Origin: Acidovorax sp. NO-1
GTDB lineage: Bacteria; Pseudomonadota; Gammaproteobacteria; Burkholderiales; Burkholderiaceae_C
Direction of reading: 5' to 3'
NCBI RefSeq assembly: GCF_000238595.1
Contig: NZ_AGTS01000077.1
Coordinates: forward strand, 62,001-126,000
DNA length: 64,000 bases
Each line of letters starts with the position of its first letter. The stretch's first letter is position 1. The notes beneath the pieces were generated by a model that saw only the letters and a list, made by a program, of their open reading frames with translations, had not been told where the DNA came from and searched no databases. Shown piece after piece: positions 50,237 through 60,616 of the stretch. A program made the position numbers and the translations under genes.

Positions 50237-51400
50237 TCACTGGGGCTCTGCAGGAAGGCCGGCGGCCAGGCGGTCCAGCTGCGCCAGCCGGGTGGGTTCC
50301 GCATCGGCAAACCGCTGCGCGATGCGCCTGAATTCTTCCGACAGGGTCAGGAAGGCATCGACGATGTCCGGGTCGAAATGGCTGCCCCTGCCATCGGTGA
50401 TGATTTCCACGGCTTTTTCGTGCGTGTACGCAGCTTTGTAGACGCGCTCCGAGATGAGCGCGTCATACACATCGGCCACCGCCATCAGACGCGCTGACAG
50501 CGGGATGGTGTTGCCGGCCAGGCCCTCTGGGTAGCCCGAGCCATCCCATTTCTCCTGGTGACTGTAGGCAATCTCCTTGGCGTAGCGGAAGAACGGGTTG
50601 TCCTGCGTGGTGCCGGTTTCGGCCGCAATGATGGCGTCGCGCCCCAGGGTGGTGTGCGTCTTCATGATCTCGAACTCTTCCGGCGTCAGCTTGCCGGGCT
50701 TGAGCAGGATGCGGTCGGGGATGCCCACCTTGCCAATGTCATGCAGCGGGGCCGACTTGAAGATGGTTTCGATGGCTGTGTCGGTGAGTTCGGGTTGGAA
50801 TCGCGGGTGGTTTTGCAGGTGGCGGGCCAGGGCTTCCATGTAGTGCTGCGTGCGCCGGATGTGGTTGCCTGTTTCGTTGTCACGCGTTTCCGCGAGAGAT
50901 GCCATCGCGCGGATGGTGGCATCCTGCAATTCGGCCATGGCGCGTGTGCGGTTGGCCACCTCCTGCTCCAGAAACTGGTTGTGCTGTGCCAGAAAATCCC
51001 GTGCGCGCTTGAGCTGCAGGTGGTTGCGCACCCGCGCCATCACGATCGCGGGGTTGATGGGCTTGGTGATGTAGTCCACCGCGCCCAGCTCCAGGCCGAT
51101 GCTTTCGTCCTCGGCAGCACTCATGGCGGTGAGGAAGATCACGGGGATGTCTTCCGTCTCGGGGTTGAACTGCAGGCGCCGCAGCACTTCATAGCCGTCC
51201 ATGTCCGGCATCATGATGTCCAGCAGGATGAGGTCGGGCTTGCTCTCGCCTGCCACGATCTGCAACGCGCGCTCTCCGCCGGGGGCCAGTTTGACCTTGT
51301 AGTCCGTGCGCAGCAGGTCGCTCATCAACGACAGGTTGTCGGGCGTATCGTCAACGACCAGCACCGTGCATCGCCCGCTGGGCGCGAAAGGGCTATTCAT
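50237..51400 (-). CDS. Response regulator with HD-GYP phosphodiesterase domain
   Basis: 387 aa. REC domain (about 11-130) with phosphoacceptor Asp61 ([11 protein letters not shown]), a short helical linker, then an HD-GYP domain with HD at His220-Asp221 ([14 protein letters not shown]) and GYP at 289-291 ([11 protein letters not shown]). It should hydrolyse cyclic di-GMP when phosphorylated. Its start overlaps the 3-prime end of the hybrid kinase gene by eight bases, so it is the likely output of that kinase. Confidence 0.93.
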
Positions 51401-54400
51401 GGTGGGGCTCCTTATTGTTGCGAATGTCTGTCGGGGCCGTCTGGCGCAGTGCAGCCAGGGCCTCCAGGAAATCGTAGCTGTCGAGCGCGCGTTTGATCTG
51501 GCCGTATGCAGGCCCCAGGTGCGCGTGCAGAGGGCCTGCAGATTCTTTGAAGAGCTCGATGGCATCGGAGTCGTCCTCCGCCAGCAAGGCGGCGAGCCGG
51601 TGCACCAGCTGTTGCGCCGCTGCAGCGTCCACCGGCATGCCGTCGCTCGCACCGCCAGGGGGCGTTGCCTCCTCAGCGGGCAGGGCAGCCTGCAAAGCAG
51701 CCACCAATGCATTGCATGCTGCTTCGACAGGGTGGAGCACCGAGTCCACTTCATCGATGGGCAAGTTTTGCGCTATGGCCTTTTCGGCCTTTTGCGCCTG
51801 GGCAGCCAGGGCCGTTGCGCCAATGGTGCCTGCGGTGCCTTTGAGGGTGTGCATGGCACGCAGTGCGTCCGGCTGCTGGCCCGCAGCCAGTGCGGCGCGG
51901 GTGGTCTGCACGGCATTCGCCTGCCCGTGGATGAACTTGCGCAAAAGGCTCTCGTAGGCAATGCGTTTGCCCAGCACACGCCGCAGTCCGGCTGATACGT
52001 CGAGTCCGTCAATCTGCCGCAGGGCATCGTCGGGTGCAGGATCGGGAGCAGATTCGGAATTGGGGTGGCGCGCGCCAGAGTATTCATTTGGAACGTCACC
52101 AATGGCATGCGCTCGAACAGCTTGGTCGAGGTCCTCACGTGCGTTGCCTGTGGCGCGCGGCCGGATCCACTGCAGCAGGGTGGCAAAAAGTGCATCCGGG
52201 TCGATGGGTTTGGCCAGGTGGCCGTTCATGCCCGCTGCAATGCACAGGTCGCGGTCGTGGCTCATGGCGTTGGCGGTCATCGCCAGCACGGGCAGGTCCG
52301 CCCAGGCAGGGTTCTGGCGCAGGTGCCGTGTAGCAGTCAGGCCATCCATCACGGGCATCTGCATGTCCATCAGCACCAGGTCATAGGAGGTTTGGGCCAG
52401 CATGTCGAGCGCCACCTGCCCGTTGTGGGCCACGTCCACCGCCAGGCCCGCGCCGCTCAGCAGTTCGGCGCCCACCTGCTGGTTCAGGTCGTTGTCGTCC
52501 ACCAGCAGCACGCGGGCCCCCGCGATGGCCGACAGATGTGTAGCGTGGCGTGGCGCGTGCGCCGCGCGTCCGTCGGCCGACCGGGCCTGCCCCCCTAGTG
52601 CCTGCATGGCGGCGTCAAACATGGCAGAGGGGCTGACAGGCTTGGACAGCATCAGCGTGAGCCCGGCACGCTGCAGCTCGTCTTGCACATCGTCGCGCCC
52701 GGCCGCCGTGACGATGATGGTGTGGGGCGGGCGCTGCAGGCTGGCCAGCGCGCGGTGGGTGTCAAACCCGTCCATTCCCGGCATCATCCAGTCGAGAAAC
52801 GCGAGCTCGCAGGGGCGCCCGGCCTGTTCGGCGGCCCGCGCCAGGGCAACCGCCTCCTTGCCAGACGATGCCGTGGTGACCGTAAAGCTCATGCGGGTCA
52901 GCATTTCACCCAGGATATGCCGTGCCTGCTCGCTGTCATCCACCACCAGCACATGCCGCCCCCGCAGGTCGGGGGTGGGCAGCAGCGGTGCATGGTGCGC
53001 GGTACCCAGGCCCAGACGGGCGGTGAACCAGAAGGTGCTGCCCACACCGGCCTGGCTTTGCACTCCCACCTCGCCCCCCATGAGCCCGGCGAGCTTCCTG
53101 GAGATTGCCAGGCCCAGGCCGGTGCCGCCGTATTTGCGGGTGGTGGACGTGTCGGCCTGTTCGAACGACCTAAATAGCCGCGATTGCTGCTCTGACGTGA
53201 GGCCTATTCCCGTATCCTGGACCTCGAACCGCAGGAGGACGCCGGTGTCGTCGCGCACGGTTTCGGTCACCCGCACGATGATCTCGCCGCGCTCGGTGAA
53301 CTTGACCGCATTGTTGGCGTAGTTCACCAGGATCTGCCCCAGCCGCAGCGGATCGCCGCGCAAGTGGTCGGGAAGGGCAGGGTCTACGTCGAAGAGCAGC
53401 TCCAGGCCTTTGTGGGCGCACTTTTCGCTGACCAGATTGGCCACGTTGTCCAGCACGCCGCGCAGGTCAAAGTCCACCACTTCCACTTCCAGTTTGCCTG
53501 CTTCGATCTTGCTGAAGTCCAGGATGTCGTTGATCAGGCCGAGCAGGTGCTGGCCCGAGCGCTGGATTTTTTCTACATAGTCTCGCTGGCGTGGGGTGAG
53601 GTCAGTGGCGAGGGCCAGGTGGCTCATGCCGATCACCGCGTTCATGGGGGTGCGTATTTCGTGGCTCATATTGGCCAGGAAGTCCGATTTCATCTGCGAG
53701 GCATCTTCGGCGCGGGCGCGGGCAATCTCCAGTTCGTCTTCGTGCTCGCGCAGGGCGGTGTTCACCTTCTGCAGCTCCAGGGTGCGCTCGGCCACCCTGG
53801 CTTCCAGGGCCTCTTCGTTGCGTTTGAGGGCTTCCACCAGCTCGTTTTGCGCGGCCAGCGCCTGGGACGCGGCCTTCTCGCGCTGCAGAAACTGCCGTGC
53901 CATCGCAAACGCCAGAAGAAAGGTGAGCAGCGCCTGGAACACGGTGAGCCCGGTGGTCAACAGTGTCTGGCGCTTAACCTCGGCGTTGCGTGAATCGCCC
54001 AGCATGGCCGACACGCGTGAGGCGTCGAGAGAAAGCTCCTGCACAGTCTCGCGAAGGGCGTCCAGTTCGGTGCGCAAGAGCCGCATGTTCTCAAGGCTGG
54101 AGGCTGCATCCACGCTGGCGCCGAAGTAGCTGTCGCCCGCGGCCACGAACCGCTGCAGTGCCGACAGGGCCTTGTCGTAGATCGGCTCCTCCTGCATCAG
54201 CGTGCGGGACGTGCCGCTCTCCAATGCACTGAAGCGGCTCAAAAACAGGTCATACCGCAGCTCCAGCCTGTCCAGGGTAATGCTGGCCGGGTCCAGCTCG
54301 AACTGGTGCAGCGCATGGTCCAGCTTTTCGTATTCGACGTTGAGTTGCAGGAAGGACCAGAGCGCATTTACATCGCCGCGTCGCATCACCGCCTCTACGT

Positions 54401-54494
54401 TGCGGTACTGGCTGTATTGCACAGCCGCAATCGCGACATACGCGAACACCAGTCCCGTAACAATCAGCGGCAGGATGTGTTTGCTGCGCAGCAT
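51393..54494 (-). CDS. Hybrid sensor histidine kinase with two receiver domains and Hpt
   Basis: 1033 aa. Two membrane segments (about 9-27 and 180-199) flank a helical periplasmic domain of about 150 residues. A coiled coil (205-265) leads to HisKA with His278 ([14 protein letters not shown]), HATPase with N-box [10 protein letters not shown] (391-400) and G boxes VQDTGIGL and [14 protein letters not shown]1 with Asp568 ([11 protein letters not shown]), REC2 with Asp710 ([11 protein letters not shown]) and a C-terminal Hpt domain with His882 ([10 protein letters not shown]). This is a complete phosphorelay in one chain. The periplasmic SUOX-like protein is encoded immediately upstream, the HD-GYP response regulator immediately downstream. 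Confidence 0.95.
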
Positions 54495-54523
54495 GCTGGG
54501 GATAGGTGGGGAGGAGCCAGGCG

Positions 54524-55054
54524 TTACCGGATGCGTAACGCGTTGAGCTGCCAGGCTGCCCGGTTGTAGTAAAGCTCGCTGCGCAGCTCTGCCTTGGTGT
54601 CAAAGGGGTAGACGATGAAAAGCGGGCCTTTTTCGCGGATGCGCATGGGCCGGTTGTTCATGAGCCGGGCGACGATGACATCGTGTCGCGTTGCGTCTTC
54701 CGCCGGTATCTCTGTCCTGTAGTCGTTCAGGGCCACGGCCGTGATCCTGGTGCCCTGTGCGCCCACGGCGGCCAGTACGTCGCGCAGCAAGGGCCCGGTG
54801 AACGTGACTGCGTTCGGGTACCAGGGTGTCTGGGTGGTGAAACTGTGCTGGGGCAATTTTTCCAGCATCTGCATGTCGAACTGCGCCTGGGCGCCGACAT
54901 TGGTCTGGCTGATAGCCCCTTCAACAGTGAGTACGACGGGCCCGCCCGGCTTGTCCAGCGCGTGTGCGCCCAAGCCGATGAACGCCGCCAAAAACGCAGC
55001 GGATCGGCATGCCCCGCCGGCAACCGCGCGTATCCCCGAAAGACGAGCAGACAT
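54524..55054 (-). CDS. Periplasmic SUOX-fold protein without the cofactor cysteine
   Basis: 176 aa with an N-terminal signal peptide (cleavage near GAHA-LDK) followed by a domain that resembles the molybdopterin-binding fold of sulfite oxidase: [13 protein letters not shown], the [12 protein letters not shown] stretch, [16 protein letters not shown] and FIVYPFDTK. The cysteine that ligates molybdenum in enzymes of this fold is absent; the only Cys (16) is in the signal peptide. It therefore probably binds a ligand rather than catalysing. Thirty bases upstream of the hybrid kinase gene, it is a good candidate for a periplasmic sensor partner. Confidence 0.75.
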
Positions 55055-55191: not shown

Positions 55192-55551
55192 TCAGTTGCC
55201 GCCGCTGGCCGCGGCCATGGTGTCCCACGCCTTCAGCGTCTCCGCTGCGTACATGAGTGCAGGGCCCCCGCCCATGTAAACACAGACGGCCAGCATTTCC
55301 TCCAGCTCATTGCGGGTGGCGCCCAGTTTTTGCAGTGCCTTGACATGAAAGCCGATGCAGCCGGAGCACCGCTGTGTGACGCCGATGGCCAGTGCAATCA
55401 GCTCCTTGTGCTTGGCGCTCAGCGTACCCTCTGCCATGGACGCTTGTGCGAGCTGGGCAAAACCCCGCATGGCATCCGGCTGCGCCTTGCGGAAAGGTGC
55501 CAAGCTTTCATTGATGCCTTGGATCAGGCCTGCGTGATCAAACGTACTCAT
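55192..55551 (-). CDS. AhpD-like carboxymuconolactone decarboxylase family protein
   Basis: 119 aa. The CxxC motif with nearby His is Cys62, Cys65 and His69 in QRCSGCIGFHVKAL, the signature of AhpD-type peroxidase partners; such proteins reduce peroxiredoxin-like partners or act on peroxides. Fourth gene of the minus arm of the sulfide locus, 64 bases after the DUF2892 gene. Its reductive cysteines fit a persulfide or peroxide defence role. Start ATG at 55551; upstream frame extension is not credible. Confidence 0.88.
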   Translation of the reverse strand: MSTFDHAGLIQGINESLAPFRKAQPDAMRGFAQLAQASMAEGTLSAKHKELIALAIGVTQRCSGCIGFHVKALQKLGATRNELEEMLAVCVYMGGGPALMYAAETLKAWDTMAAASGGN

Positions 55552-55615
55552 CGAAGGGGTCCTTCCTCGAACGTTGCAGGGGCATGCACGCATTGGCGCA
55601 ATGCCTTCGGGTGAT

Positions 55616-55807
55616 TCATTTCTTCATGGGGCAGGTGTTGACGCCCAACAAGGTATAGGCCGGGCAAAATCGAAACAGGCCGGTGGCCAGGGGCACCACG
55701 CCCAGCCATCCCCACCAGCCGACAGTGCCCGTGGCTGCCAGTGCTATCAGGACCAGCCCTGCCACGACGCGCAGCGCGCGATCCAACGTTCCAACATTGA
55801 CTTTCAT
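55616..55807 (-). CDS. DUF2892 membrane protein (YgaP-type)
   Basis: 63 aa. N-terminal NVGTLDRALRVVAGLVLIAL, one or two hydrophobic stretches and the family cysteines FRFCPAYTLLGVNTCPMKK. In E. coli YgaP this part is the membrane half fused to a rhodanese; here the rhodanese is a separate neighbouring gene. Located in the inner membrane, it may anchor or channel sulfur-transfer partners. Confidence 0.92.
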   Translation of the reverse strand: MKVNVGTLDRALRVVAGLVLIALAATGTVGWWGWLGVVPLATGLFRFCPAYTLLGVNTCPMKK

Positions 55808-55893
55808 GATGACTCCTTGGGTTAATTTACCGGCCCCATGTGGGGCCCCTGTTTGACCTGGGCAGTAGGTGCGGCATGCACGCACTGCACAGG

Positions 55894-56274
55894 TCAATCG
55901 AAAGCCGGAGATTCCGGCACCACGACGGGCTTGCCGGCCGCGAGCCAAGCGTCAAAGCCGCCGGCGATGGACTGCACCTGGAGGTAGCCCATATCGTGCA
56001 TGGCGCGCGCCGCCAGCGCAGCTCGCCCGCTGGTTTTGCAATACACCACCACCTTCAGGTCGCGCGGGGTGAGTGCGGGCGTGCTGCTGAGTTTGAACTC
56101 CAGCACACCGCGTGAGGCATGGATTGCGCCGGGGATGTGTCCCGCCTGGTATTCATCGGCTTCCCGGACATCGATCAACACGTCGGCTGCACGAATGGCT
56201 TGCTCGGCCTCGTCCACCGGGGTTTCCTGGATCTGGGCTTTGGCTGCAGCGACAAGGTCATGGGCAGTTTTCAT
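55894..56274 (-). CDS. Rhodanese-like sulfurtransferase
   Basis: 126 aa single rhodanese domain. Active-site Cys79 in VVYCKTSGRAA, with the CH2A region VLIDVREADEYQAGHIPGA. It can transfer sulfane sulfur, for example from persulfides to cyanide, thiols or proteins. Thirty bases after the ETHE1-like gene, in the minus arm of the BigR-controlled locus. Confidence 0.92.
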   Translation of the reverse strand: MKTAHDLVAAAKAQIQETPVDEAEQAIRAADVLIDVREADEYQAGHIPGAIHASRGVLEFKLSSTPALTPRDLKVVVYCKTSGRAALAARAMHDMGYLQVQSIAGGFDAWLAAGKPVVVPESPAFD

Positions 56275-56304
56275 GGCGTGGTCCTTGGATTGGATTTGAG
56301 CGTG

Positions 56305-57165
56305 TCACAGCGCGTTGACGGGAATCTTGAGATAAGTCACGCCATTGGCTTCCGGTGGCGGCATTTCTCCCGCCCTGATGTTGACCTGCACCGAGGGCAG
56401 GATGAGCACGGGCATCTGCAGCGTTGCATCGCGCTGGGTGCGCAGTGCCACGAAAGCCTCCTCGATCACTCCGTCGTGGATGTGGATGTTCCTGGCACGC
56501 TGGTCCGCAACAGTGGTTTGCCAAGCTACGGGGCGCCCTGCGGGAGGGTAGTCGTGGCACATGAACAGGCGGGTTTCATCCGGCAGGCTGAGCAATTTGC
56601 GCACTGACTGGTACAGCGTATGGGCATTGCCGCCGGGAAAGTCGCAGCGCGCGGTGCCCACGTCGGGCATGAAGAGGGTGTCACCCACGAACACCGCGTC
56701 GCCCACCTGGTAGGCCATGCAGGCGGGGGTATGGCCGGGCACTGCCAGCGCATGTGCTTCCAGCTGGCCGATGTGGAACACCTCGTTGTCGTGCAGCAGC
56801 TGGTCGAACTGGGTGCCATCCGGACGGAACTCGGGCTCCAGATGAAAGACCTTCTTGAACACGTCCTGCACCTGGGTGATCGACGCGCCAATGGCAATTT
56901 TTCCCCCCAGCTTGTCGCGAAGGTAGTGTGCGGCCGACAGATGGTCTGCGTGGGCATGGGTCTCCAGAATCCATTGCACTGTCAGCCCCTGGCTCTGCAC
57001 AAACGACACGATCTTGTCGGCAGACCGCGTGCGGGTGCGGCCCGACTTCGGGTCGTAGTCCAGCACCGAATCCACCACGGCGCAGTGGCCGCCAGGCTGA
57101 TCGAACACCACATAGCTCACCGTCCAGGTGGCGTCATCAAAGAAGGCTTCTATCTGGGGTTTCAT
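56305..57165 (-). CDS. ETHE1-like persulfide dioxygenase (MBL fold, Blh C-terminal half)
   Basis: 286 aa metallo-beta-lactamase fold. Metal-binding HxHxDH is His70-His72-Asp74-His75 in ETHAHADHLSAA, with a later PGHTPACMAY and the GDTLFMPDVGTARCDFPGG segment. It oxidises persulfide (for example GSSH) to sulfite. In Agrobacterium and Xylella the Blh protein is a fusion of a DUF442 domain with this part; here the DUF442 part is a separate gene at 58507-58863. First gene of the minus arm; ATG at 57165 is the real start, TTG at 57168 just upstream. Confidence 0.93.
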   Translation of the reverse strand: MKPQIEAFFDDATWTVSYVVFDQPGGHCAVVDSVLDYDPKSGRTRTRSADKIVSFVQSQGLTVQWILETHAHADHLSAAHYLRDKLGGKIAIGASITQVQDVFKKVFHLEPEFRPDGTQFDQLLHDNEVFHIGQLEAHALAVPGHTPACMAYQVGDAVFVGDTLFMPDVGTARCDFPGGNAHTLYQSVRKLLSLPDETRLFMCHDYPPAGRPVAWQTTVADQRARNIHIHDGVIEEAFVALRTQRDATLQMPVLILPSVQVNIRAGEMPPPEANGVTYLKIPVNAL

Positions 57166-57197
57166 CAAAGGGCTCCGTATCTAATTTCCATGCAGAT

Positions 57198-57232
57198 AGT
57201 TTATTGACAAATATAATGTATGTCAATAGAAT
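57198..57232. promoter_or_regulatory. Symmetric divergent promoter and operator of the BigR locus
   Basis: TTGACA (57204-57209) and TGTCAA (57221-57226) form a perfect 6-base inverted repeat with an 11-base AT spacer. On the plus strand TTGACA is followed after 17 bases by TAGAAT (57227-57232); on the minus strand the other arm reads TTGACA and is followed after 17 bases by TAAACT (57203-57198). Each is a sigma70-type promoter, so both promoters overlap and share one operator. Confidence 0.7.
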
Positions 57233-57265
57233 ATCGACATCGAATTTGAAAAGGAGTGCGCCACC

Positions 57266-57601
57266 ATGCACGCAGAGATACAAATGGACCTGGAAGCCTT
57301 GCGCAGGTCCGCCGACAGCGCTTGCCGCTTGATGAAAGTTTTGTCCAACCCCGACCGCCTGCTGCTGCTGTGTCAGCTGACCCAGGGTGAAAAGCGGGTG
57401 GGTGAACTGGAAGAACTGGTGGGCATTTCCCAGCCCACCTTGTCGCAGCAACTGGGCGTATTGCGCGATGAGGCACTCGTCAACACGCGACGCGAGGGCA
57501 AAAACATCTATTACGAGATCGCCAGTCCCCAGGCCCTGGCGGTGATGAACGTGCTGTTTGAGCAATTTTGTGGCCCCGCCCAGGAGAGCGCACCATGCTG
57601 A
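57266..57601 (+). CDS. bigR: BigR-type ArsR repressor (persulfide sensor)
   Basis: 111 aa winged helix protein: MKVLSNPDRLLLLCQLTQGE, the recognition helix ISQPTLSQQLGVLRDEALV, and an extended wing. Cys36 and Cys102 are 66 residues apart, exactly as the sensing cysteines Cys42 and Cys108 of BigR that form a disulfide or tetrasulfide on persulfide exposure. Ribosome-binding site AAGGAG. Its start is 34 bases after the operator, so it represses itself and the divergent arm. Confidence 0.94.
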   Translation: MHAEIQMDLEALRRSADSACRLMKVLSNPDRLLLLCQLTQGEKRVGELEELVGISQPTLSQQLGVLRDEALVNTRREGKNIYYEIASPQALAVMNVLFEQFCGPAQESAPC

Positions 57602-58026
57602 TCGATTGGACCCATTTCACCCCCTGGGCTGCCCTTGCGGGCGGCGTTTTGCTGGGGCTTGCCTCGGCGCTTTTTGTGCTCCTCAATGGTCGCATTCTGG
57701 GCATCAGCGGCATTGTGGGAGGGCTGCTGCGCCCCCGCGATGGTGACATTGGCTGGCGCGTGGCTTTTGTACTGGGCATGCTGGTGGCTCCTGGCCTCTA
57801 CTGGCTGGTGATCGGCCCCACGCAGCCGCGCATTGACGCGACCTGGGCCATGGTGGTGATCGCCGGCCTGCTGGTGGGTGTCGGCACCCGTTACGGATCG
57901 GGCTGCACGAGCGGCCACGGCGTGTGCGGGCTCTCGCGCATGTCTCCCCGGTCCCTGGTCGCCACCCTGGCCTTCATGGGTGCCGGGTTCGTCACCGTCT
58001 TCCTCATCCGGCACGTGCTGGCCTGA
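57595..58026 (+). CDS. YeeE/YedE family channel, first half (PmpA type)
   Basis: 143 aa inner-membrane protein with about four hydrophobic segments. The thiosulfate-channel motif with cysteines is [15 protein letters not shown] (Cys104, Cys111). It overlaps the bigR stop by seven bases (ATGCTGA), so it is translationally coupled. Together with the next protein it forms a two-part sulfur-compound transporter. Confidence 0.92.
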
Positions 58027-58055
58027 CCTCCCATCCCATCGGAGCATTGATCGTT

Positions 58056-58505
58056 ATGAAAAATCGTATTTCAGAGTTTGTGGTGGGCCTGATCTTCGGA
58101 CTGGGCCTGATCGTCTCGGGCATGACCGACCCCGGCAAGGTGCTGGGCTTTCTGGACCTGGCGGGCTTGTGGGACCCATCGCTGGCCTTCGTGATGGGCG
58201 GCGCGATTGCGGTGGGCGTCTTTGCGTTTGCCGCGGCCAAGAAGCGCACCACCAGTTTCCTGGGGGGCGCCATGCATTTGCCCACGTCGCGCGACATTGA
58301 TCGCCGCCTGGTGATCGGAAGCCTCATCTTCGGCGCAGGCTGGGGTATTGCGGGCTTCTGCCCCGGCCCGGCCATCGTTTCGGCGGGCGCAGGCCAGCCC
58401 AAAGCCATCGTGTTCGTGATCGCCATGCTGGCAGGCATGTGGCTGTTTGAACTGGCCGAACGCATGTCACGCCGCACCCCATCCACCCGGACCGGAGCCC
58501 GCTGA
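58056..58505 (+). CDS. YeeE/YedE family channel, second half (PmpB type)
   Basis: 149 aa inner-membrane protein with about four hydrophobic segments. The counterpart motif is [17 protein letters not shown] (Cys102). In larger YeeE proteins both halves are in one chain. Start ATG at 58056. It ends one base before the next gene. Confidence 0.92.
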
Positions 58506-58506
58506 C

Positions 58507-58863
58507 ATGCCGCTGCAGATCATTGCCCTGACCCCCGACTTCGCAGTGTCTCCCCAGCTCGCCACTACGGACTTTGCCTCTTTGGCCCAGCAGGGCTTCA
58601 AGACCATCATCAACAACCGGCCGGACGGGGAGGGCGGTGGCGCACAACCCACCAGCCCTGAAATGGAGCGCGCTGCCACAGTCGCAGGGCTGCACTATGT
58701 GTACCTGCCCGTAGTGAGTGGCTCCATCACGCCGGAACAGGTGCAGGCCATGCACAAGGTCCTGATCACCGCCCCCAAGCCCACGTTGGCGTTTTGCCGT
58801 TCGGGCGCCCGGTCTGCCCAGTTGTTCGGGCTGGCGCAGAACCTGGACGCCGACGCGTCCTGA
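58507..58863 (+). CDS. DUF442/TIGR01244 phosphatase-like protein (Blh N-terminal half)
   Basis: 118 aa with a cysteine-phosphatase-like loop FCRSGARSAQL (Cys97, Arg102). This domain forms the N-terminal half of Blh in Agrobacterium and Xylella; it has been proposed to act as a sulfurtransferase or phosphatase in persulfide handling. It is directly downstream of the YeeE pair and the ETHE1-like partner is on the other arm of the divergon. Start ATG at 58507. Confidence 0.92.
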   Translation: MPLQIIALTPDFAVSPQLATTDFASLAQQGFKTIINNRPDGEGGGAQPTSPEMERAATVAGLHYVYLPVVSGSITPEQVQAMHKVLITAPKPTLAFCRSGARSAQLFGLAQNLDADAS

Positions 58864-58879
58864 TCACCCGGGAACCACG

Positions 58880-60616
58880 ATGCACCTCATCCCCGGCTGG
58901 ATCCGCAACTACCAGAAGTCCTGGCTCTCCGGAGACATGGTCGCCGGGGTGATTGTTACGGTGATGCTGATCCCGCAGAGCCTGGCCTACGCGCTTTTGG
59001 CGGGCTTGCCCCCCGAGGTGGGCTTGTACGCCAGCATCCTGCCCATCATTGCCTATGCCGCGCTGGGCTCCAGCATGACGCTGGCTGTGGGGCCCGTGGC
59101 GGTGGCCTCGCTCATGACGGCGAGCGCCCTGCAGCCGCTGGCTGCCGCTGGCTCGCCCGACTACATTGCGCTGGCCATGCTGCTGTCACTGCTCTCAGGG
59201 GGCATGTTGCTGCTGTTTGGCGTATTGCGGTTGGGTTTTCTGGCGCACTTTCTGAGCCATCCTGTGATCAGCGGGTTTATCTCTGGCTCGGCAGTGCTCA
59301 TCGCTGTGGGGCAGGTCAAGCACCTGCTGGGCGTGAAGGCCGGTGGTACCGATGTCTTTGACACCGTGGTGCAACTGGCCCACGCAGCGCCCGGAATCAA
59401 CCTGGTCACTCTGGGCATCGGCGCCGGCAGCGTGTTGTTTCTGGTGCTTGCGCGCAGGTCCTTGTCCCCATGGCTGGTCCGTCTGGGCGCCAGCCAACGC
59501 TTGGCAGACATCGCATCCAAACTGGCGCCGATGCTGGCGGTAATGGTCTCCACCGCCTTGGTGGCCGCCATGCGGTGGGACCAGACGGCGGGGGTCAGCA
59601 TTGTGGGCACGGTGCCCCAGGGCCTGCCGCAGCTCGGGCTGCCGGCGGTGTCGATGGCGTCCGTGGGCTCGCTGTGGCTGCCTGCGCTGCTGATCTCGCT
59701 GGTGGGCTTTGTGGAAAGCGTGTCGGTAGCGCAGTCTCTGGCGCTCAAGCGGCAGCAGCGCATTCAGCCCAACCGTGAGCTGCTGGGTCTGGGGGCTGCC
59801 AATGTCGCCAGTGCGCTGTCGGGTGGTTTCCCCGTCACGGGCGGCTTTGCGCGGTCTGTCGTCAATTTTGCGGCGGGTGCAAATACGCCCCTGGCAGGCG
59901 TCATTTCGGCCGTGCTGATGGGTGTGGTGATCGCAGCGCTGACCGGGCTTTTTCACTATCTGCCCCATGCCGTGCTGGCAGCCACCATCATCGTGGCGGT
60001 GGTTTCCCTGATCGATATGGAGACGCTGCGCGAAGCCTGGCACTACGACAAGGCCGACGCCATGGCCCTGCTGGCCACAGCAGGGGGCGTGATCGCTTTT
60101 GGCGTGGAAGCCGGCATCCTGATGGGGGTGGCGTTGTCGCTGGGCACCTTGGTGTGGCGCAGCAGCCATCCGCACATCGCGGTGGTGGGGCGCGTGCCAG
60201 GTACGGAGCACTTTCGCAACGTGACCCGACACACGGTGAACACAGAGCCGGGCCTGATTGCCGTGCGGGTGGATGAAAGCCTGTATTTCGCCAACTCCGA
60301 CGCTTTGCTGGACCGTGTGGAGGAATTGGTGGGCGCCCAACCCGATACCCGCCATGTGCTTCTGGTGTGCTCAGCCATCAACCAGATCGACACCACTGCA
60401 TTGGGCGTACTGACCGATCTGGAGCGCAGTCTGGCCCAGCGCGGCGTGGCGCTCCTCCTGGCAGAAGTCAAAGGGCCAGTGCTGGATCGCCTGCAGACCA
60501 CTCAGCTCGGGCAGCGTCTGGAGGGCAGGGTGTTTATGAGCACCCATGCGGCGTTTGAGTTTGCACACCACAGGGCGAATGCCCCGTCAATTCCATCACC
60601 ATCGTTGGCCCCATAG
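58880..60616 (+). CDS. SulP family inorganic anion transporter with STAS domain
   Basis: 578 aa. Membrane domain (about 1-440) starting MLIPQSLAYALLAGLPPEVGLYA with further SulP segments such as RSVVNFAAGANTPLAGVISA; C-terminal STAS domain (about 445-560) with SAINQIDTTALGVL. It probably exports or imports sulfate, sulfite or another anion made by persulfide oxidation. It is the last gene of the plus arm, 16 bases after the DUF442 gene. Confidence 0.94.
   Translation: MHLIPGWIRNYQKSWLSGDMVAGVIVTVMLIPQSLAYALLAGLPPEVGLYASILPIIAYAALGSSMTLAVGPVAVASLMTASALQPLAAAGSPDYIALAMLLSLLSGGMLLLFGVLRLGFLAHFLSHPVISGFISGSAVLIAVGQVKHLLGVKAGGTDVFDTVVQLAHAAPGINLVTLGIGAGSVLFLVLARRSLSPWLVRLGASQRLADIASKLAPMLAVMVSTALVAAMRWDQTAGVSIVGTVPQGLPQLGLPAVSMASVGSLWLPALLISLVGFVESVSVAQSLALKRQQRIQPNRELLGLGAANVASALSGGFPVTGGFARSVVNFAAGANTPLAGVISAVLMGVVIAALTGLFHYLPHAVLAATIIVAVVSLIDMETLREAWHYDKADAMALLATAGGVIAFGVEAGILMGVALSLGTLVWRSSHPHIAVVGRVPGTEHFRNVTRHTVNTEPGLIAVRVDESLYFANSDALLDRVEELVGAQPDTRHVLLVCSAINQIDTTALGVLTDLERSLAQRGVALLLAEVKGPVLDRLQTTQLGQRLEGRVFMSTHAAFEFAHHRANAPSIPSPSLAP

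Follow-up and report, generated by a model that had tools for sequence, protein, structure and literature searches.

The described systems closest to the locus reported here, a cluster of nine genes at positions 55192-60616 of a 64,000-nucleotide stretch of the Acidovorax sp. NO-1 genome (contig NZ_AGTS01000077.1, positions 62,001 to 126,000; the whole stretch is referred to here as the window), combine sulfur-handling genes with repressors of the BigR/SqrR type. In Acinetobacter baumannii, and also in Serratia, the BigR operon yeeE-yedE-pdo2 (PMC7315123) has in common with the window a BigR-type repressor, a paired YeeE/YedE and a standalone dioxygenase, PDO2, the pairing of BigR with such an unfused enzyme being already published for Acinetobacter; the window differs in having two divergent arms and additional DUF442, SulP, rhodanese, DUF2892 and AhpD-like genes. 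The bigR operon of Xylella and Agrobacterium (PMC5823870) shares the spacing of 66 residues between two repressor cysteines (Cys42/Cys108 in that system), DUF442 and ETHE1 chemistry and a (presumed) sulfur-oxyanion transporter. However, DUF442 and ETHE1 form one protein there (Blh) and the transporter is a TauE-related exporter, whereas the window encodes separate proteins, a persulfide dioxygenase (SDO) of another lineage, and SulP.

In Escherichia coli ygaVP (PMC9774250), a BigR/SqrR homologue likewise governs a rhodanese: YgaP is controlled by the BigR homologue YgaV, which binds at the polymerase recognition site, and this control supports a comparison of the rhodanese and DUF2892 genes of the window with YgaP. 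Cupriavidus pinatubonensis (PMC10812762, PMC6441731) shares the zero-valent sulfur importer with its conserved cysteines, a DUF442 sulfurtransferase and a PDO, although its DUF442 is a domain of SQR, whereas that of the window stands alone and an SQR-like gene is located elsewhere in the genome. Finally, the bidirectional promoters of E. coli, an already studied class (PMC12825309), resemble the intergenic region of the window in their pseudo-symmetrical DNA, which RNA polymerase reads in either direction, one polymerase at a time; these promoters share a -10 element, whereas the proposed repressor dyad of the window is made up of two full promoter-like sites with an overlap of 23 bp. Within the parts of the open-licence literature that were covered, neither this combination of genes, nor a replacement of TauE by SulP, nor a BigR site laid out as a bidirectional promoter was found to have been described.

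The nine genes are best explained as a locus for the uptake and detoxification of persulfide under BigR/SqrR control, with the usual unfused modules and, for Acidovorax, the full complement of genes (with a probability of roughly 0.85), a reading carried by gene content, conservation, catalytic residues, operator/promoter geometry and phylogeny, all of which were observed directly. All open reading frames in the region match the expected families (Table 1), and its outer bounds are the stop codons of the AhpD-like gene (55192) and of SulP (60616). From the centre outward, the minus arm consists of genes for SDO, rhodanese, DUF2892 and the AhpD-like protein, separated by 30, 86 and 64 bp, while the plus arm comprises the ArsR-family repressor, YedE1, YedE2, DUF442 and SulP-STAS and is tightly packed (gaps of -7, 29, 1 and 16 bp). 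The original prediction had assigned DUF442 to the plus and the dioxygenase to the minus arm, with rhodanese and DUF2892 as neighbouring single genes and all four modules separate, and this arrangement was confirmed by gene positions, gene calls, reading frames and family matches.

Table 1. Proposed regulatory elements and genes of the BigR/SqrR-type locus, in window positions
Feature	Position	Strand	Supporting observation
AhpD-like CMD-family protein, 119 aa, last SDO-arm gene	55192..55551	-	PF02627 5e-22; TIGR00778 over cut-off
DUF2892/YgaP-like transmembrane protein, 63 aa	55616..55807	-	PF11127 2e-25, over cut-off
Single-domain rhodanese, 126 aa, active loop CKTSGR	55894..56274	-	PF00581 3e-22
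Unfused ETHE1/SdoA-like persulfide dioxygenase (SDO), 286 aa, HxHxDH	56305..57165	-	ETHE1-like MBL; solved-chain match
Near-palindrome of 39 bp, proposed operator holding both divergent promoters	57196-57234		30/39 positions self-complementary
Sigma-70 promoter-like site, SDO arm, TTGACA-17-TAAACT	57198..57226	-	10/12 matches
Sigma-70 promoter-like site, BigR arm, TTGACA-17-TAGAAT	57204..57232	+	11/12 matches
BigR/SqrR-type ArsR-family repressor, 111 aa, Cys36/Cys102	57266..57601	+	HTH_5 over cut-off; solved chain 3pqj
YedE1 (PmpA-like), half of proposed zero-valent-sulfur transporter	57595..58026	+	PF04143 30.4 bits, cut-off 27 (just over)
YedE2 (PmpB-like, DUF6691), other half of proposed transporter	58056..58505	+	PF20398 1e-61; PF04143 below cut-off
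Standalone DUF442 sulfurtransferase, 118 aa, active loop CRSGAR	58507..58863	+	PF04273 and TIGR01244 over cut-offs
SulP-STAS anion carrier, 578 aa, last BigR-arm gene	58880..60616	+	TIGR00815 452 bits, cut-off 380 (family member)

The residues expected of a persulfide-responsive system were shown to be conserved in both arms. The best solved chain for the repressor was 3pqj ('Biofilm growth-associated repressor', E 2e-25), and of its cysteines (positions 20, 36, 102 and 111), C36 and C102 are each conserved in 149 of the 150 proteins of this type encoded in the loci surveyed. The spacing of 66 between them agrees with the known sensor, as had been claimed, and, together with the predicted ArsR fold, fits a dithiol ArsR repressor of the BigR/SqrR type. 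The window SDO was assigned to the ETHE1/SdoA type, given that its metal residues H70, H72, D74 and H75 are kept in 151 of 153 sequences (the other two having gaps) and that its best solved chain was 4ysk (E 5e-125), which we take to be SdoA of Pseudomonas putida, with ETHE1 (4chl) matched at E 3e-17; among the matches listed, the nearest named SDO is that of Acidovorax delafieldii DSM 64 (96% identity). The two half-size YedE proteins each possess one conserved cysteine (C104 of YedE1 in 124/124, C102 of YedE2 in 121/122), as predicted for a YedE1E2 pair with one essential cysteine per half, in which C102 would correspond to the published C101. The DUF442 protein scored 117.8 bits against TIGR01244 (cut-off 85.85), to which family it was assigned, with C97 and R102 of its CxxxxR loop present in 47 of 48 sequences. 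Furthermore, conservation extends to the rhodanese (C79 and R84 in 20/20) and to the cysteines of DUF2892 (C48 in 43/43, C59 in 42/43). The AhpD-like protein belongs to the AhpD core with CxxC and histidine (TIGR00778, 48.2 bits, cut-off 27.8; C62, C65 and H69 kept in 25/25), and its nearest solved chain is 5dik, 'Alkyl hydroperoxide reductase AhpD'. It is labelled AhpD-like only, because the other NCBIfam models that it matched all fall below their own cut-offs. The start at 55551 is considered likelier than that at 55593, since an AGGAAGG ribosome site precedes the former; the family scans of this protein were made with the longer version.

Taken with the published homologues, these genes suggest a pathway in which sulfur would be sensed, transported, transferred and oxidised by the dioxygenase as in the named systems. 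The reduced repressor would sit on the near-palindrome that holds both promoters and keep both arms shut; a cross-link between Cys36 and Cys102, brought about by persulfide or polysulfide, would release it and allow both arms to be transcribed; in line with this, H2S and polysulfides are reported to inactivate BigR via its two cysteines (PMC5823870). YedE1 and YedE2 would import zero-valent sulfur, as YedE1E2 speeds the import of zero-valent sulfur into glutathione persulfide (GSSH) and requires Cys104 of YedE1 and Cys101 of YedE2 (PMC10812762). DUF442, a sulfurtransferase that requires its loop cysteine and arginine (PMC6441731, PMC8533005), and the rhodanese, with DUF2892 as a YgaP-like membrane partner, would shuttle sulfane sulfur to and from glutathione (GSH), after which the SDO would convert GSSH to sulfite and SulP would export the sulfur oxyanion. 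For the AhpD-like CxxC protein, an accessory role as thiol reductase or peroxidase is probable; the substrates assigned to it and to SulP are inferences. The DUF442 and ETHE1 domains of Blh, purified separately, couple in vitro through GSH/GSSH, the full-length protein being faster (PMC5823870), and therefore neither a fusion nor a stable complex should be needed. If correct, this interpretation names what is likely the full sulfur gene set of Acidovorax and its relatives.

Between the arms a single operator-like dyad was identified, consistent with the earlier claim of one BigR operator. The -35 boxes of its two overlapping promoter-like sites form the inner parts of both dyad arms and the -10 boxes are located in the outer parts. 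The inner 27-bp dyad, TATTGACA-N11-TGTCAATA, was found in exact form at two sites of the 5.0-Mb genome, which are its two BigR loci, the next-best site having 2 mismatches; at up to 3 mismatches there were six sites, compared with one for a reversed control pattern. The two BigR loci of this genome probably share regulators. The 7+7-bp dyad TATTGAC-N13-GTCAATA is exact in 53 of 127 SDO-BigR intergenic regions (three overlapping samples, 120 unique sequences) and present with no or one mismatch in 65 (60 of the 120 unique), as opposed to none of 2540 dinucleotide shuffles. An overlapping promoter pair occurs in 64 of these 65 near-exact regions and in 74 of the 127 overall, compared with 10 of the 2540 shuffles. 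Based on the conserved dyad, the promoter pair and the two exact genome copies, one site most likely controls both arms, with the repressor predicted to bind the dyad, and the operator-promoter design appears to be conserved widely across loci. In one further SDO-BigR intergenic region (locus L066), the dyad is perfect, with 9-bp arms and a spacer of 9 rather than the 13 of the window, a change that would alter the promoter overlap.

The recurrence of the gene set was examined in three sets of loci, which overlap in at least 7 loci and were counted as they stand; the whole intergenic sequence is identical between two named Acidovorax loci and loci of the genus set. The genus set contains all 36 BigR matches from 47 genomes, of which 35 had a match passing E 1e-30; a few of the loci are cut by contig ends. 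The named set is the best 80 of 588 relatives, seeded with the window SDO and therefore favouring SDOs of the window's type. From a list of 104 BigR matches, 60 regions were covered in addition to the window and three more, the other 40 lying outside the sample. Among the 36 genus loci, a divergent SDO was observed in 32, YedE1 in 32, DUF2892 on the SDO arm in 25, DUF442 in 20, AhpD in 20, SulP in 19, rhodanese in 15 and all nine genes in 10. Of the 80 named loci, 61 have BigR, with a divergent SDO in 58, SulP and DUF442 on the BigR arm in 18 and 16, respectively, and AhpD and rhodanese in four each, while the 59 family loci with BigR (of 62) include 43 with SDO, 15 with SulP, five with DUF442, three with AhpD and one with rhodanese on the SDO arm. 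These counts define a core of SDO and BigR-YedE1-YedE2, often extended by SulP and DUF442; it is only in Acidovorax that AhpD and rhodanese are common as well. A broader survey found a DUF442 match in 56 of 120 family genomes, mostly in genes outside BigR loci, and the conclusions on the locus therefore rest on the BigR and SDO searches.

The original prediction would have failed had AhpD and SulP been absent from close relatives. In the five nearest relatives (BigR at least 94% identical, one of the same species), AhpD was present in all five and SulP in all four with sufficient contig. Furthermore, AhpD is accompanied by DUF2892 in 20 of 20 complete loci; AhpD without DUF2892 was seen outside that count in L053 (short contig), L062 and L119. 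In L062 (genome G134), which the locus counts exclude, the dyad is exact, SDO is divergent from BigR-YedE1-YedE2-DUF442-SulP and the AhpD gene lies beyond SulP.

Several observations weigh against the proposed locus and its shared operator. The repressor scored 98.7 bits against the NCBIfam BigR equivalog (NF040642; cut-off 155) and is therefore designated BigR/SqrR-type rather than BigR as called by NCBI, and the conserved cysteine of YedE2 is one position off the published C101. AhpD and rhodanese are patchy even within the genus (20/36 and 15/36, respectively). As for the operator, a third, weaker promoter match (9/12) was found on the minus strand at 57237-57210, the dyad search pattern was derived from the window itself, though tested on other loci, and 40 of the 127 intergenic regions have at least four mismatches to the dyad; the exact form is thus not universal, and more distant loci would use another spacing or sequence. 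The functional side of the reading, moreover, is drawn from sequence and published homologues.

The original prediction was right in recognizing a BigR-type persulfide locus with Blh- and YgaP-like modules and recurrent AhpD and SulP genes, but its description of the modules as 'split' was not upheld. If Blh and YgaP fusions had been taken apart, with the separate parts still working as complexes, the same module set around one operator would be accounted for; the searches and trees make this scenario highly improbable. A search of the class with the Blh model NF040641 returned 47 SDO matches (E 1e-60 or better) across 274 genomes, 43 of which had a match, and 46 of the 47 are devoid of a DUF442 fusion, one match spanning both domains. 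The unfused arrangement, the conservation of which the original prediction had left to be checked, is thus the rule. Of 398 phylum genomes, 146 had a Blh-model match, which in six exceeded the cut-off for the fused protein; the top ranks among the matches listed in the phylum search are taken by nine fused proteins, and no DUF442-fused SDO was observed in the 80 named loci, the best of 588 relatives ranked by likeness to the window SDO. The window SDO itself scored 404 bits against NF040641 (cut-off 625), over positions 141-423 only, and the window DUF442, a separate gene on the opposite strand, scored 84.5 bits over positions 4-109; neither is a Blh, defined as DUF442 and ETHE1 in one protein at 625 bits or more. 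Similarly, YgaP is a rhodanese-DUF2892 fusion, and the window has two genes, 86 bp apart, instead.

Phylogenetic comparison of the SDOs (115 rows, after thinning of 177 at >82% identity, with the window represented by the same-species sequence L205) placed nine Blh SDOs with nine unfused ones in an 18-row set with a support of 100. The other 97 rows, which include the window's type, are all unfused and are separated from the Blh set by a fully supported branch; the tree includes nine of the ten fused Blh matches (nine from the phylum search and one from the class search). The 'split' genes thus appear to be the common form and Blh fusions a minority, which makes Blh unsuitable as a template for BigR loci.

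The DUF442 tree (64 rows) also argues against a dismantled Blh, as the window clade joined standalone DUF442 proteins with a support of 92/90. In approximately unbiased (AU) tests this grouping gave p 0.44, and a grouping with Blh, at p 0.17, was likewise allowed, the latter counting in favour of a former fusion. This careful tree omits the long-branch rows L185, L244, L245, L092 and L196 and 13 of 25 standalone rows, while 22 of 47 standalone DUF442 proteins had been removed before a quick tree was made. DUF442 could alternatively be what is left of a DUF442-SQR fusion after loss of its quinone-oxidoreductase half, given that DUF442-SQR-like fusions fill the same slot before SulP in L053, L072 and L162 and that the DUF442 of a second BigR locus in the same genome (L006) groups with the SQR-fused clade (support 97/89). 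For the window DUF442, this origin is very improbable: joining its clade to those SQR-fused rows that are betaproteobacterial (10 of 15) was rejected (AU p 1.5e-10). It is possible for the L006 DUF442. That one genome has DUF442 genes of different lineages in two corresponding slots suggests, as judged from these trees, that exchangeable parts were recruited rather than a fusion taken apart.

DUF442-SQR-like fusions were also noted in related sulfur loci (L022, L044, L045, L049, L053, L058, L072, L140, L151, L152, L162, L163, L180, L188 and L189; the family match was checked for L022), and in several Pseudomonas and Achromobacter loci the SQR-like part alone is located beside BigR.

Within the unfused persulfide locus favoured here, SulP may substitute for TauE. 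Among 111 complete loci (of 126), SulP alone was found in 42, TauE alone in 26, neither in 43 and both in none (Fisher p 8.7e-7, kinship ignored), the TauE calls being based on a profile built up from a single such protein (L239) with individual matches unreviewed. When independent evolution was simulated on the SDO tree with fixed frequencies, overlap was absent in 3.9% of 4000 runs, and in none of the 1035 runs in which SulP numbered 32 or more and TauE 18 or more. Independent SulP/TauE pairs on the tree were too few for pair tests, which were underpowered, and a Pagel-type test (p 0.012) was not relied on, as its single-trait gain rates ran to zero. An association of SulP with DUF442 gave p 3.5e-5 without correction and p 0.15 in the Pagel test, itself doubtful. 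In Xylella and Agrobacterium, sulfite export in this pathway is ascribed to a TauE-related transporter (PMC5823870), and SulP standing in for TauE is therefore the simplest reading of this pattern, a new and moderately supported proposal based on co-occurrence. Its fuller form, in which SulP-STAS is an efflux pump for sulfite or another sulfur oxyanion replacing TauE and the BigR site is a symmetrical bidirectional promoter whose arms compete for polymerase, is put forward tentatively, with the odds somewhat against it; it offers one testable new idea, namely a SulP carrier in the place of the sulfite exporter.

SulP and AhpD might instead be passengers with housekeeping roles (sulfate or bicarbonate uptake and general peroxide defence, respectively) that share the operator by chance. 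Their patchy occurrence would fit such a role, AhpD being common only in Acidovorax (20/36 genus, 4/61 named and 3/59 family loci), yet SulP, the last gene of a closely packed arm, lies 16 bp from DUF442, is met again on the BigR arm of 18/61 named and 15/59 family loci and never occurs with TauE in the complete loci, and AhpD keeps company with DUF2892 as described above, L053, L062 and L119 aside. Chance sharing is consequently regarded as unlikely.

The paralogous BigR locus L006 (contig C145, 15.6-20.2 kb) has DUF2892-SDO divergent from BigR-YedE1-YedE2-DUF442-SulP and is without rhodanese and AhpD. Its proteins are 68% (SDO), 76% (BigR), 42% (DUF442) and 55% (SulP) identical to those of the window. 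In the same-species genome only one BigR match passes E 1e-30, and L006 has no counterpart among the matches there, so that the second locus appears to be strain-variable; IS66 genes were observed approximately 3 kb beyond it. At a distance of ~10 kb from L006, locus L236 (contig C145, 2-8523) holds in succession a SulP gene truncated at the contig end, a rhodanese gene, an MBL-like frame, an SQR-like gene and cytochrome bd genes. With 222 aa, the MBL-like frame falls short of the length of the SDOs and is possibly a broken copy. The SQR-like protein and cytochrome bd encoded elsewhere in the genome could act as suppliers of zero-valent sulfur.

Next to the locus, on the minus strand of the window (51393-55054), a 176-aa protein with a sulfite-oxidase fold is followed by a 1033-aa hybrid histidine kinase. 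The smaller protein has a single cysteine, Cys16, in its leader region, and its nearest solved chains are 7rkb and 7kos ('pterin binding proteins'); judging from these matches, the two genes likely encode a pterin-sensing pair of the PruR/DTB type (PMC13259868). A PruR-like gene is located near BigR in 20 of the 36 genus loci. In two loci (L061 and L229, of genomes G085 and G604, respectively), BigR lies beside a PruR-like gene and kinase with no SDO or YedE within 6.5 kb, and the best upstream dyad has 5 mismatches, the repressor possibly being an orphan.

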